DNA from: a bacterium
GTDB taxonomy: Bacteria > Zhuqueibacterota > Zhuqueibacteria > Residuimicrobiales > Krinioviventaceae
Direction of reading: 5' to 3'
Assembly: GCA_029561455.1 (NCBI GenBank)
Contig: JAKQIY010000074.1
Coordinates: forward strand, 62,001-126,000
Length of the DNA: 64,000 nt
In this document: in pieces, positions 40,388 to 45,811 of the stretch
Layout of the letters: each line of letters starts with the position of its first letter
Position numbering within the stretch: position 1 is the first letter of the stretch
Translations under genes and position numbers: made by a program
The notes under the pieces: generated by a model
The model's database searches: none
What the model saw: only the letters and a program-made list of their open reading frames with translations
What the model was told of the DNA's origin: nothing

Positions 40388-40508
40388 CCGGCTAAAGCCG
40401 GGTCTTCAAACACGTCCCGAAAGGTGAAGCAACGGGACTACTCGATGACCGTAATATATTTTAGAATAACTGATCGTCGAGTAGTCCGTCCCGCTTGGCG
40501 GGACGGAC
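40388..40508. repeat. Intergenic hairpin island with stacked palindromes
   Basis: CCGGCT-AA-AGCCGG (40388-40401). A 14-bp arm GGACTACTCGATGA at 40435 is paired with its inverse at 40474-40487 (one mismatch). A perfect 11-bp stem GTCCGTCCCGC / GCGGGACGGAC lies at 40484-40508. No coding frame is credible here. Confidence 0.82.
40418..40451. repeat. 34-bp direct repeat, copy 1
   Basis: CGAAAGGTGAAGCAACGGG followed by ACTACTCGATGACCG. It matches 40787-40820 with a single substitution. Confidence 0.85.
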
Positions 40509-40642: not shown

Positions 40643-40681
40643 GAAATACTACCGGGGTCGCAGGGCCTGTCACTAGATCAA

Positions 40682-40744
40682 ACCCCGTCAGGGGTGCAAT
40701 GTTTATAGCAAAATTTAAAAAATACTTGTAACCCCGTTAGGGGT
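40682..40744. repeat. Two ACCCC-GTnA-GGGGT hairpins
   Basis: ACCCC-GTCA-GGGGT (40682-40695) and ACCCC-GTTA-GGGGT (40731-40744), same orientation, about 49 bp apart. Confidence 0.75.
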
Positions 40745-40786
40745 GGAACATGTATATTAACACGCGCCCGGCATCTCGATACGTTA

Positions 40787-40820
40787 CGAAAGGTAAAGCA
40801 ACGGGACTACTCGATGACCG
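40787..40820. repeat. 34-bp direct repeat, copy 2
   Basis: Second copy of 40418-40451. It is followed by CGCCGGGATTCACAAC (about 40846), inverted relative to the ends of the 13-kb direct repeats. Confidence 0.85.
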
Positions 40821-40922: not shown

Positions 40923-40950
40923 TTGACTTTTACAAATAAAGATGTATATT
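40923..40950 (+). promoter_or_regulatory. Promoter of the GntR-slipin operon
   Basis: -35 TTGACT (40923-40928), 16-bp spacer, -10 TATATT (40945-40950). The -10 box lies inside the operator palindrome, which fits autorepression. Confidence 0.75.
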
Positions 40951-40989
40951 ACTATTGTACTATATGTATAGTACAATAGTAATATACAT
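40942..40989. promoter_or_regulatory. Perfect 48-bp palindromic operator
   Basis: Two 23-bp arms (40942-40964 and 40967-40989) are exact inverse complements with only TG between; the core reads TTGTACTATATGTATAGTAC. It overlaps the -10 box and the likely transcript start, 13 bp upstream of the SD of a GntR(YtrA)-type gene. It is probably the binding site of that repressor, though a transcript stem-loop cannot be excluded. Confidence 0.85.
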
Positions 40990-41015
40990 ATCTAAATTGC
41001 AAGGAGGTGGTTTAT

Positions 41016-41393
41016 TTGATACAGTTTAAGCTCGATCCCAAAAGTGGCGTGCCGTTCTATCGACAGATCATCGACCAGATACGATACGGCATTGCTTCCG
41101 GACAGTTAACAGTGGGAGAACAGTTGCCAACAGTTCGCGCTCTGGCAGTGGAATTGAAAATCAATCTCAATACCATTACCAAGGCCTACAAGGAACTGGA
41201 AATACAAAGTATTTTGGAAACGCAACAGGGAACCGGCACATTCATTGGCCCCAAAGCTGTAGTCATTCCGGAAAAAGAAAAAAATGCCAAGTTGAGTGAT
41301 ATTTGTCAGGAATTTTTGATGATAGCCCGCAGCTATGGATTCAGTCTTGAAGAAGTAATAAATGAATTAAAGTTAAAAGGAGGCAAACAATGA
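41016..41393 (+). CDS. GntR family transcriptional regulator, YtrA subfamily
   Basis: 125 residues. The start is TTG at 41016 (MIQFKLDPKSGVPFYRQI), 8 nt after AGGAGG; a GTG at 41007 overlaps that site. The winged-helix domain carries YRQIIDQIRYGIASG, QLPTVRALAVELKINLNTI and TKAYKELE, and a short all-helical C-terminal dimer part of about 50 residues defines the YtrA type. Such proteins repress their own operon and usually bind cell-wall or metabolic signals. The gene overlaps the slipin gene by 4 bp (ATGA), so they are translated together. Confidence 0.93.
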   Translation: MIQFKLDPKSGVPFYRQIIDQIRYGIASGQLTVGEQLPTVRALAVELKINLNTITKAYKELEIQSILETQQGTGTFIGPKAVVIPEKEKNAKLSDICQEFLMIARSYGFSLEEVINELKLKGGKQ

Positions 41394-42310
41394 GAATAAA
41401 AATTGAGCCTGAATTAAGAAGGACCCATATTCATCGCAAAGGTGCTTGTAACAATCCTATAGCCTTTACGGCGCTGGTGATATTAATTGGCCTTAATTTT
41501 CTGATTTATTTTTTACTATCTAAAAACGATATTACCCTGGTCTTGGGGATTATTCTGGCAACGCTGATCGCCTCTTCCATACACATTGCCGACCAGTGGG
41601 AAAAGGCGGTGGTATTGCGGATGGGCAAGTTCATTGGTCTGAAAGGCCCTGGGCCGTTTGTAATTATCCCCATCGTCGACCGGGTACACAATTATATCGA
41701 TCAGCGGGTGCGGGTGACGGATTTTAAAGCGGAAGAAACCCTGACCAAAGATACTGTGCCAGTAAATGTTGATGCTGTAGTCTATTGGACGGTTTGGGAT
41801 GTGGAAAAGGCTGCCCTGGAAGTTCAGGAATATACCAGCGCTGTTGCATATATCGCGCAAACCGGCTTGCGCGATATAATCGGCAAACACGAGTTGGCCG
41901 ACCTGCTGCAGAATCGGGAAAAAATTGGCGAAGCGTTGCAGACCACGCTGGATGAAAATACCAATCCCTGGGGCATTACCTGCCAGAATGTGGGCATCAA
42001 GGATATTGTTATCCCCGCAGCCCTGGCAGATGCGATGAGCAAGCAGGCGCAGGCAGAACGGGAACGCCAGGCGCGCGTTATTCTGGGCACAGCGGAGACG
42101 GAAATATCTGCAAAATTTGCCCAGGCCAGTGAAAATTATTTGAATAATCCTGTCGCCCTGCAGTTACGCGGTATGAATATGTTGTTTGAGGGATTAAAAG
42201 AAAAAGGCTCCCTGATCATTGTGCCCAGTTCAGCGCTGGAATCTATGAACCTGGGCGCTATCGGTGGATTGTCGGCCCTGGCGGAACAGCAGACCAATGC
42301 ACAAAAGTAG
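41390..42310 (+). CDS. Slipin / SPFH (band 7) membrane protein
   Basis: 306 residues. Two hydrophobic segments at about 23-42 and 45-64 anchor it. The SPFH domain follows: ADQWEKAVVLRMGKFIGLKGPGPFVIIPIVDRV and RVRVTDFKAEETLTKDTVPVNVDAVVYW. A coiled-coil tail (KQAQAERERQARVILGTAE) leads to the conserved C-terminus ALQLRGMNML and IIVPSSALE. It forms membrane-bound ring or scaffold assemblies. In bacteria slipins are often paired with an NfeD protease, but here the partner is a GntR repressor and a 30-aa membrane peptide. SD AAAGGAGG. Confidence 0.93.
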   Translation: MRIKIEPELRRTHIHRKGACNNPIAFTALVILIGLNFLIYFLLSKNDITLVLGIILATLIASSIHIADQWEKAVVLRMGKFIGLKGPGPFVIIPIVDRVHNYIDQRVRVTDFKAEETLTKDTVPVNVDAVVYWTVWDVEKAALEVQEYTSAVAYIAQTGLRDIIGKHELADLLQNREKIGEALQTTLDENTNPWGITCQNVGIKDIVIPAALADAMSKQAQAERERQARVILGTAETEISAKFAQASENYLNNPVALQLRGMNMLFEGLKEKGSLIIVPSSALESMNLGAIGGLSALAEQQTNAQK

Positions 42311-42805: not shown

Positions 42806-45800
42806 ATGAAAAAACTGATCCTGTTATGTGGACTGATCCTGGTTCAGTCACTACACGCCCAAATCCCGGTTATAAATAAAGAGTTTCGCAGGGCGGAAGC
42901 GGAAAAAAAAGATGTAATTGCTAAAAAAATACTGTCAACCCAGGAATATACGCGGGCTGAATTTATCGGCTGGGATATTGATTATTATTCACTGGATTTG
43001 TTCCCGGATATAAAATCAGAAACATTGTACGGCCGTGTCCAGGTGCGGGGAACTGTTTTAAGCGATGTTATGGAATGGGCGGGATTATCATTATGGGCCG
43101 GAATGCAAGTCAACAGTATTGTATCATCCGCTAATACTGCCGACACCCTTGATTTTATCCAAAAAGAGGAAATTGATATACTTCTGATCAAACTGGAGCG
43201 GCCATTTCTCAAGGGAGAAGAAATTTGTTTTACAATAGATTACCAGGGACGCCCTCAAAATTCCGGTTACGATGCCTTTGATTTCGGTTCCCAACTCGAT
43301 AAACCTATGATCTGGACGTTGAGTGAGCCGTTCGGCGCTAAAAGCTGGTGGCCCTGTAAGGATACGGCTACCGACAAACCCGATTCCATAGATATTCGGG
43401 TTACGGTTCCGCAGGAATTAACTGTAGTATCCAATGGTTCTTTGCGCAGTAAAACTGCGGTCGGGGATAATTACATCTGGTGGTGGCACGAGCAATATCC
43501 GATAGCGCCTTATCTTGTTTCCCTGGCCATATATGAATATGATATTCACTATGATAATTATATTTACAACGACGGCGCCGATACTATGCAAATCCAGTTT
43601 TATAATTTTCCCGGCGTGTATGAGCAATATAAAGGCGATATGCAAAAAGTAAAGGGGATGATCACCTTGTTTTCACGGTTGTTTGGCGAATATCCTTTTG
43701 TTGAGGAAAAATATGCCCAGGCCGATTTCCTGGGCGGCGGCGCTATGGAACACCAGACCTGTTCATCGTTCAGTTTTTTTGGCGAATGGGTCTATGTGCA
43801 TGAACTGGCGCATCAGTGGTGGGGCGATCTGATCACCTGCAGCGATTTCCACCATATCTGGCTGAATGAAGGTTTGACCACTTATTGCGAAGCATTGTGG
43901 TATGAAGCAAGATATAAAAATTATACAGCCAGCGATTACCAGATGAGTATGAATTTATATCTCGGTCCGGGCACGGTGTACGTAGAAGACCCCGAACATG
44001 ATAATATCTTTGACGGCGGACTCAGTTATGCCAAGGGGTCGTGGATCCCGCACATGCTGCGCCATATTGTAGGAGACAGTACTTTTTTTGTTATTTTACA
44101 GGAATTTTATAAATCCCCGCTGCATAGCTACGGTACGGCGACTAGTGAAGATTTTAAAACACTGTGTGAACAACTCTCCGGTCAAGAACTCGAGACCTTT
44201 TTCCAACAATGGATTTACGAAGAAGGGCACCCTCATTATTATTACTATTGGAACTGGGAGAAAACCACCAACGGTTTGTACCGGGTATTTGGCCAAATCA
44301 AGCAGGTGCAATCTGTGGGGCCGGTCTTTGCCATGCCGTTGGATATCACAATACAAACGGAAAACGGCGACACGACTTTTGTGATGTTGAATGACGAAAA
44401 GTATACGGATTTTGAATACCTGGTAACCGCGCAACCAGTGATGGTACTATTAGATAAAGATAACTGGATACTGAAACAAGTAAGCGGTAATTTTACTCCC
44501 AATTTTGTGTTACTGGATTACCAGATCGACGATTCACAAATGAACGATAATGGATTGATCGACGCCGGTGAAAACGTGACCCTGTTGGTACAGGTACAAA
44601 ATATTGGCGTTAACGCTGCAAATTATCAATTACAGTTAACTACAGACGACCCGGATATTACTATCATCGATGGCGCCTGTGATCTGTCGATCGTGGAAAG
44701 ATATTCTGCTGCCGATAGTATGGAAGCGCCTTTTACTCTTTGGGTTTCTCCCACGGCGCGGGGCCATTTTGCAGAATTCTCTCTTTCAGTATCGACGGAC
44801 AATAATTACAGCCAGAACCTTAATTTCCCTGTTGCTATAAACATTCCCCCTATTTTATTTGTGGATGATGATAACGGAAAGAACTATGAGGCTTTGATTA
44901 CGGCTAGTCTTGAAAATAATTATATTCCATTTACAATCTGGAATGTTAACGAGAACGGCCCGGTTGATTTACAGTCCTATAATATGGTGATTTGGGCAAC
45001 CGGTAGCGACCGGGACAGCGCCCTGACTGCCAATGAGCAAAAGGCGCTTGCCGGATTTTTAAATAATGGCGGCAAGTTATTGCTGACCGGCCAGAATATC
45101 GGTTATGATCTATGCGGCCAGGGTTCAACTGCCGACTCGGTTTTTTTTCGCAATTACCTGCATTCCAGTTATATTAACGACCGGATCGAGGCCAACCAGG
45201 TGTTGGGGCGTAAAGATGATCTGCTCGGTGATAACCTGATGTTTAATATAGCGGCGCCTGAAGGCAGCGCCGGCGACCGTTATTCGCCTGATGTTATTGT
45301 CCCGATAGAACCGGCGCGTACATTTTTACTTTATTCTACCACACAACAATGCGCCGGTCTTTACTATAGTGATGATTTCACCGGCGCTAAAGTTATCTAT
45401 ATACCCTTTGGACTTGAAGGCATATCCACTGAGCAGGATCAGGAAAGCGCCGGTAGATTTTACAAACGGGCCTTACAATGGTTTGCCGAGCCGGCTCAGG
45501 TAACCCGCGTGCAACAATGCCCAGAGAGCCCGACCAGACTATACTTGTATCCGAATTACCCGAATCCGTTCAACCCCGAAACCCGCATTGATTTTGAGGC
45601 GCCTGAGCGCTGTTTTGTTACCTTGCAGGTTTTTAATTTATTGGGCGTTGAGGTCGCTGAACTGGTGCGAGAATATAAAAATCCCGGAACATATTCTGTG
45701 ATGTGGGACGGCAGGGATAGTTTCGGTAAAGCTGTTCCCAGTGGTGTATATATCTATAAAATATCTGCCGGCAATCATCAGGCCAGTCAGAAAATGCTGT

Positions 45801-45811
45801 TGATGCGTTAA
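42806..45811 (+). CDS. Secreted M1-family metallopeptidase with sorting domain
   Basis: 1001 residues. Signal peptide 1-18. The M1 N-terminal beta domain leads to GGGAMEHQT (the GAMEN exopeptidase loop, changed to GAMEH) and the zinc site HELAHQWWGD (about 332-341) with the third ligand in WLNEGLTTY (about 355). A long beta-rich central part (possible Ig and FlgD-like domains) is followed by the type IX sorting domain from YPNYPNPFNPETRIDF. It should cleave peptides at the cell surface. SD GGGAGA. Single gene. Confidence 0.94.
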   Translation: MKKLILLCGLILVQSLHAQIPVINKEFRRAEAEKKDVIAKKILSTQEYTRAEFIGWDIDYYSLDLFPDIKSETLYGRVQVRGTVLSDVMEWAGLSLWAGMQVNSIVSSANTADTLDFIQKEEIDILLIKLERPFLKGEEICFTIDYQGRPQNSGYDAFDFGSQLDKPMIWTLSEPFGAKSWWPCKDTATDKPDSIDIRVTVPQELTVVSNGSLRSKTAVGDNYIWWWHEQYPIAPYLVSLAIYEYDIHYDNYIYNDGADTMQIQFYNFPGVYEQYKGDMQKVKGMITLFSRLFGEYPFVEEKYAQADFLGGGAMEHQTCSSFSFFGEWVYVHELAHQWWGDLITCSDFHHIWLNEGLTTYCEALWYEARYKNYTASDYQMSMNLYLGPGTVYVEDPEHDNIFDGGLSYAKGSWIPHMLRHIVGDSTFFVILQEFYKSPLHSYGTATSEDFKTLCEQLSGQELETFFQQWIYEEGHPHYYYYWNWEKTTNGLYRVFGQIKQVQSVGPVFAMPLDITIQTENGDTTFVMLNDEKYTDFEYLVTAQPVMVLLDKDNWILKQVSGNFTPNFVLLDYQIDDSQMNDNGLIDAGENVTLLVQVQNIGVNAANYQLQLTTDDPDITIIDGACDLSIVERYSAADSMEAPFTLWVSPTARGHFAEFSLSVSTDNNYSQNLNFPVAINIPPILFVDDDNGKNYEALITASLENNYIPFTIWNVNENGPVDLQSYNMVIWATGSDRDSALTANEQKALAGFLNNGGKLLLTGQNIGYDLCGQGSTADSVFFRNYLHSSYINDRIEANQVLGRKDDLLGDNLMFNIAAPEGSAGDRYSPDVIVPIEPARTFLLYSTTQQCAGLYYSDDFTGAKVIYIPFGLEGISTEQDQESAGRFYKRALQWFAEPAQVTRVQQCPESPTRLYLYPNYPNPFNPETRIDFEAPERCFVTLQVFNLLGVEVAELVREYKNPGTYSVMWDGRDSFGKAVPSGVYIYKISAGNHQASQKMLLMR

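Follow-up and report, generated by a model that had tools for sequence, protein, structure and literature searches.

A conserved 22-bp core within a perfect 48-bp palindrome as the predicted self-operator of a YtrA-type regulator–slipin operon

The window, i.e., the whole 64-kb stretch of DNA that was analysed, contains an operon of two genes encoding a GntR-family regulator and a slipin, with a long perfect inverted repeat located upstream of them. The features of the locus are as follows:

40923–40928, + strand: -35 box TTGACT (consensus match only)
40942–40989, no strand: perfect inverted repeat of 48 bp, 23-bp arms, TG centre (sequence, simulation)
40945–40950, + strand: -10 box TATATT (consensus; position relative to the core shared with the nearest orthologues)
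40947–40954, + strand: left auxiliary half-site TATTACTA, 6/8 like TTGTACTA, 8 bp outside the core (offset-8 enrichment in orthologues)
40955–40976, no strand: predicted core operator TTGTACTATA-TG-TATAGTACAA (conserved across phyla)
40977–40984, - strand: right auxiliary half-site TATTACTA, 8 bp outside the core (offset-8 enrichment in orthologues)
41001–41007, + strand: ribosome binding site AAGGAGG (read from the sequence)
41016–41393, + strand: YtrA-type GntR regulator, 125 aa, TTG start (Pfam, orthologue starts, model, structural matches)
41390–42310, + strand: slipin/stomatin-like SPFH (Band_7) membrane protein, 306 aa (Band_7 match, structural matches)

The spacing between TTGACT and TATATT is 16 nt; taken as a class, promoter-like matches did not outnumber those in shuffled sequences. 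The -10 box lies within the left palindrome arm, in agreement with the initial annotation, which had the palindrome covering it. A divergent promoter on the right arm was also considered and rejected, as inspection by eye showed no -35-like hexamer 16 nt from the mirrored TATATT. For the regulator gene, TTG 41016 is a more likely start than GTG 41007, since its orthologues begin with MIxFKLDP. The two genes share a 4-nt overlap.

Two repeats were found upstream of the operon. The sequence AACCCCGT(C/T)AGGGGTG is located at 40681–40696 and 40730–40745, 49 bp apart; it has 48 exact copies in the genome, many of them paired at about 49 bp (0 for the reversed control), and appears to represent a family of interspersed intergenic repeats. 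The second repeat, CGAAAGGT(A/G)AAGCAACGGGACTACTCGATGACCG, is located at 40418–40451 and 40787–40820, and its 45 genome copies within 3 mismatches often lie near the first one. Downstream of the operon, a large ORF of 1001 aa (42806–45811) resembles, by eye, an M1-type peptidase that ends in a sorting-like domain.

The regulator was attributed to the GntR family by its N-terminal winged helix-turn-helix domain (Pfam PF00392, E 2e-17, 63 bits against a cut-off of 27). In the structural model, this domain is followed by helices H86–106 and H111–120, as in the two-helix C-terminal domain of about 50 aa of the YtrA type; the pLDDT was about 87–92 over residues 91–120 with a mean of 74, the wing being poorly predicted. 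Short GntR proteins and the YtrA structures 6sbs and 2du9 were among the best structural matches. The modeled winged helix plus two C-terminal helices fits the YtrA subfamily. The second protein contains an SPFH domain with stomatin-like similarity (Band_7, E 3.5e-37), and its best solved structural matches are stomatins (E to 8e-41). A membrane segment near residues 26–63 was recognized by eye only. The Pfam matches and the YtrA-type structural features bear out the earlier statement that the palindrome precedes a GntR (YtrA)–slipin operon.

A scan of genome contigs with the regulator yielded 80 close homologues (64–78% identity) from approximately 10 phyla, according to the record titles, including Bacteroidota, Ignavibacteriota, KSB1, Desulfobacterota, Myxococcota, Latescibacterota, Aminicenantes, SAR324 and Krumholzibacteria. 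A slipin gene is located directly downstream of the regulator in 79 of the 80 loci (74 detected by BLASTP and 5 more by eye in reading frames), L086 being the only exception; this gene takes the place of the ABC-transporter operon that is typical, if not obligatory, for YtrA regulators. In the 22 nearest genomes, the regulator and slipin were found together in G000, G001, G013 and G019, and both were absent from the other 18. The genome G001, which belongs to the same genus as the window's genome, carries an orthologue of the regulator. This patchy co-occurrence suggests that the module may have been transferred horizontally. The regulator tree had too few columns to test transfer, and the position of the window's protein in it is unsupported. 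No description of a YtrA–slipin operon was found in the literature titles and abstracts searched, subscription papers being outside the scope, and the orthologous group appears to be undescribed.

The palindrome at 40942–40989 reads ATGTATATTACTATTGTACTATA-TG-TATAGTACAATAGTAATATACAT, each arm contributing 23 paired bases around a centre of 2 nt, exactly as previously described. When 2 mismatches were tolerated, the arms extended to 28 nt (40937–40964 and 40967–40994). It is the longest perfect inverted repeat of the window (the runner-up has arms of 13 bp) and is present in a single copy in the 5.85-Mb genome. In ten simulated 64-kb sequences with the same base composition, the longest perfect arms were 11 bp.

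Across the loci, the regulator genes share a 22-bp motif within their upstream 250 bp, TTGTACTATAnnTATAGTACAA, with the general form TTGTMMTA-N6-TAKKACAA; only this central core of the palindrome is conserved. This form was matched at ≥14/16 positions in 72 of 81 promoters and in 1 of 405 dinucleotide shuffles. Across the 58 sites that match best, a set itself chosen on the core match, the G-T at -8.5/-7.5 and the C-A at +8.5/+9.5 do not vary. The resulting GT-N14-AC arrangement places G and C at 8.5 bp on either side of the centre, as expected of a YtrA operator, a long palindrome whose GT and AC lie well away from its midpoint. The presence of the core upstream of orthologous YtrA–slipin pairs in many phyla makes it very probable that, as initially proposed, the palindrome contains the operator of the adjacent regulator and lies on its promoter. 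That the palindrome arose by chance or is an assembly artefact is scarcely credible: although the genome is a draft of 85 contigs, the arm length is far beyond chance expectation, unique sequence flanks the palindrome on both sides, and its core is kept in most of the 80 other loci.

The palindrome might also work as a DNA cruciform or an RNA hairpin, for example a terminator, instead of a protein site. The single strand does fold into a nearly complete hairpin (-18.4 kcal/mol, z -8.4), and a terminator scan marked the palindrome on the - strand. However, the marked stem has only 4 G-C pairs, the operon transcript would include little beyond one arm, since the predicted start is near the palindrome centre, and conservation tracks the bases of the half-sites and not the pairing of the arms. 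We therefore consider this explanation very improbable.

In the window's genome, the core at 40955–40976 is the sole site within 3 mismatches. The operon site was the best or joint-best motif match in 16 of 17 whole genomes, and other matches in these genomes were about as frequent as those of a reversed control pattern. A multi-site regulon was considered and found to be unsupported both in the window's genome, with its one site, and in the 17 others. The three core matches with 2 mismatches in other genomes, L113–L115, had no regulator or slipin match nearby in one search, which was a partial check. The single-site pattern of these predicted operators is that of a local autorepressor.

Two variants of the core were observed. 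In L055, L062, L067, L072 and L074 (Latescibacterota and one Gemmatimonadota bin), the half-site TTGTCATA replaces TTGTACTA with unchanged spacing, and the two half-sites could be compared with the regulator residues in order to find contact positions. Some bacterial promoters have a -7 box with a TAnnTTTG-like consensus, and in Bacteroidota loci such as L091 and L093, the core begins inside a box of this kind (TATGTTTGTAC). There, too, the operator would lie on the promoter, under a different sigma context.

At an outward offset of 8 bp from the core, half-site-like boxes were enriched on the left as well as on the right, both in Bacteroidota and in the remaining phyla, each group taken alone; with near-identical sites removed, the enrichment exceeded 1000 shuffles for each side of each group. 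Bacteroidota have another clear box on the right, at 16 bp, which reaches into their start codon; in the remaining phyla it is weaker. In the window itself, the auxiliary half-sites are degenerate and lack TTGT. The left one overlaps the -10 box, and its conservation could be that of the promoter; since promoter elements overlap the left boxes, the evidence is cleaner on the right. YtrA regulators are known to have extra half-sites at 7–12 nt and are reported to have weaker adjacent boxes (PMC4494728); in the YtrA of Sulfolobus acidocaldarius, binding draws in part on secondary half-sites (PMC6746942). The idea of two dimers bound side by side stands in part: the half-sites at offset 8 make extra subunits possible, but they are single half-sites and do not form a second complete dimer site.

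The initial annotation had read the perfection of the 48 bp as that of an operator, with very tight repression as one possible meaning, and the comparison of orthologues does not support this. The outer arms of the window match at 13/13 positions, while the next best contiguous run outside the core among the 76 other aligned sites is 8 bp, so that none of these 76 has such arms. In the left arm of the nearest relatives, TATATT keeps a constant distance to the core and is exact in most of them, and its right mirror is present in none. The whole palindrome was also tried as a conserved operator and rejected, as the symmetry of the outer arms in orthologues was not above that given by column composition. 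Among the sites compared, only that of this genome is perfectly symmetric beyond the core.

One could still propose that the whole 48 bp is a selected extended operator on which a central dimer and cooperative flanking dimers or subunits would give very tight repression in this species. The half-sites of the orthologues, offset by 8 bp to either side of the core and by 16 bp to its right, would agree with it, as would the adjacent boxes and secondary half-sites of the YtrA regulators cited above. However, the palindromic form of the outer arms is not conserved, the auxiliary half-sites of the window match the half-site no better than those of relatives, and the perfection runs 5 bp past the auxiliary sites. 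This proposal seems unlikely to us.

Imperfect palindromes gain in perfection through template switching (PMC8794818), as quasipalindromes do in E. coli (PMC7202029). Even with the window left out, arm-to-arm matching beyond the core in the non-Bacteroidota sites exceeded that of permuted pairings (mean run p 0.016, a value that ignores relatedness, L055 and L062 being near copies). The left-only -10 box in relatives, this arm matching and the template-switch precedent are the grounds for reading the right outer arm as a mirror copy of the promoter arm. Template switching at a palindrome already present in imperfect form would have copied the promoter-side arm to the right, and the copy would have been tolerated because the promoter and operator stayed functional. 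This is the least certain step of the reconstruction, and we give it roughly even odds. Identity to the window, averaged over all sites, was 6.4/13 for the right arm and 6.0/13 for the left; as the former is not below the latter, the direction of copying is read from the -10 box only.

Thus, our preferred reading, with a probability of about 0.8, is that the 22-bp core is the predicted self-operator of the downstream YtrA-type repressor over the transcription start, and that the outer symmetry is genome-specific and may be a product of template switching. From the observed sequence, conservation, synteny, single target and gene co-occurrence, we infer the following binding, repression and signal. 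A regulator dimer would bind the two TTGTACTA half-sites, with G and C 17 bp apart, and cover the predicted transcription start (~40957–40959, just 3' of the -10 box), which would block transcription of the regulator's own gene and of the slipin gene. The weak half-sites 8 bp outside the core would probably give added contacts or subunits. Since the slipin is the only output, some membrane or envelope signal presumably lifts the repression. A more extended picture is tentative and, in our opinion, rather doubtful: the half-sites may form an array with an 8-bp period (a central inverted pair, one box to its left and at most two to its right), with more than one dimer of a minimal YtrA repressor assembling along it, in a stand-alone single-slipin module spread through many phyla, the array having been made perfectly symmetric here by template switching.

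The results link a widespread, little-studied module of a YtrA regulator and a slipin to an operator that can be recognized across phyla, and this predicted operator offers a handle on the control of bacterial slipins. They also indicate that a striking perfect palindrome may be larger than the functional site, the operator being marked by conservation and not by symmetry.

Among the known systems, NanR is a FadR-type regulator. It is reported to be a GntR-family repressor with several repeated half-sites (PMC8012715), as predicted here, but three NanR dimers bind direct repeats, in contrast to the central inverted pair of the window. The SPFH domains of the slipin/stomatin structures 3bk6 and 9oh9 align with the window slipin over ~170–220 residues; unlike in that family, this bacterial slipin is encoded with its own YtrA regulator. 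The S. acidocaldarius YtrA (PMC6746942, PDB 6sbs), which shares 31% identity with the window regulator in the structural alignment, is a self-repressor, as predicted for the window regulator, with a core and weaker flanking half-sites over the transcription start and a small membrane-protein regulon; however, it is archaeal and has a 14-bp core in a 32-bp repeat, whereas the predicted core here is 22 bp. There is also a likeness to the YtrA subfamily of GntR (Suvorova et al. 2015, PMC4494728), with its short two-helix C-terminal domain, long palindrome with distant GT/AC, nearby extra half-sites and one autoregulated operon, the last of which is assigned here by site prediction only. No Bacteroidetes YtrA regulators were analysed in Table 2 of that study, and its text does not name a stomatin or SPFH target. 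The usual partner in that subfamily is an ABC transporter, whereas here it is a slipin, and the GT-N14-AC spacing is that of the present group.
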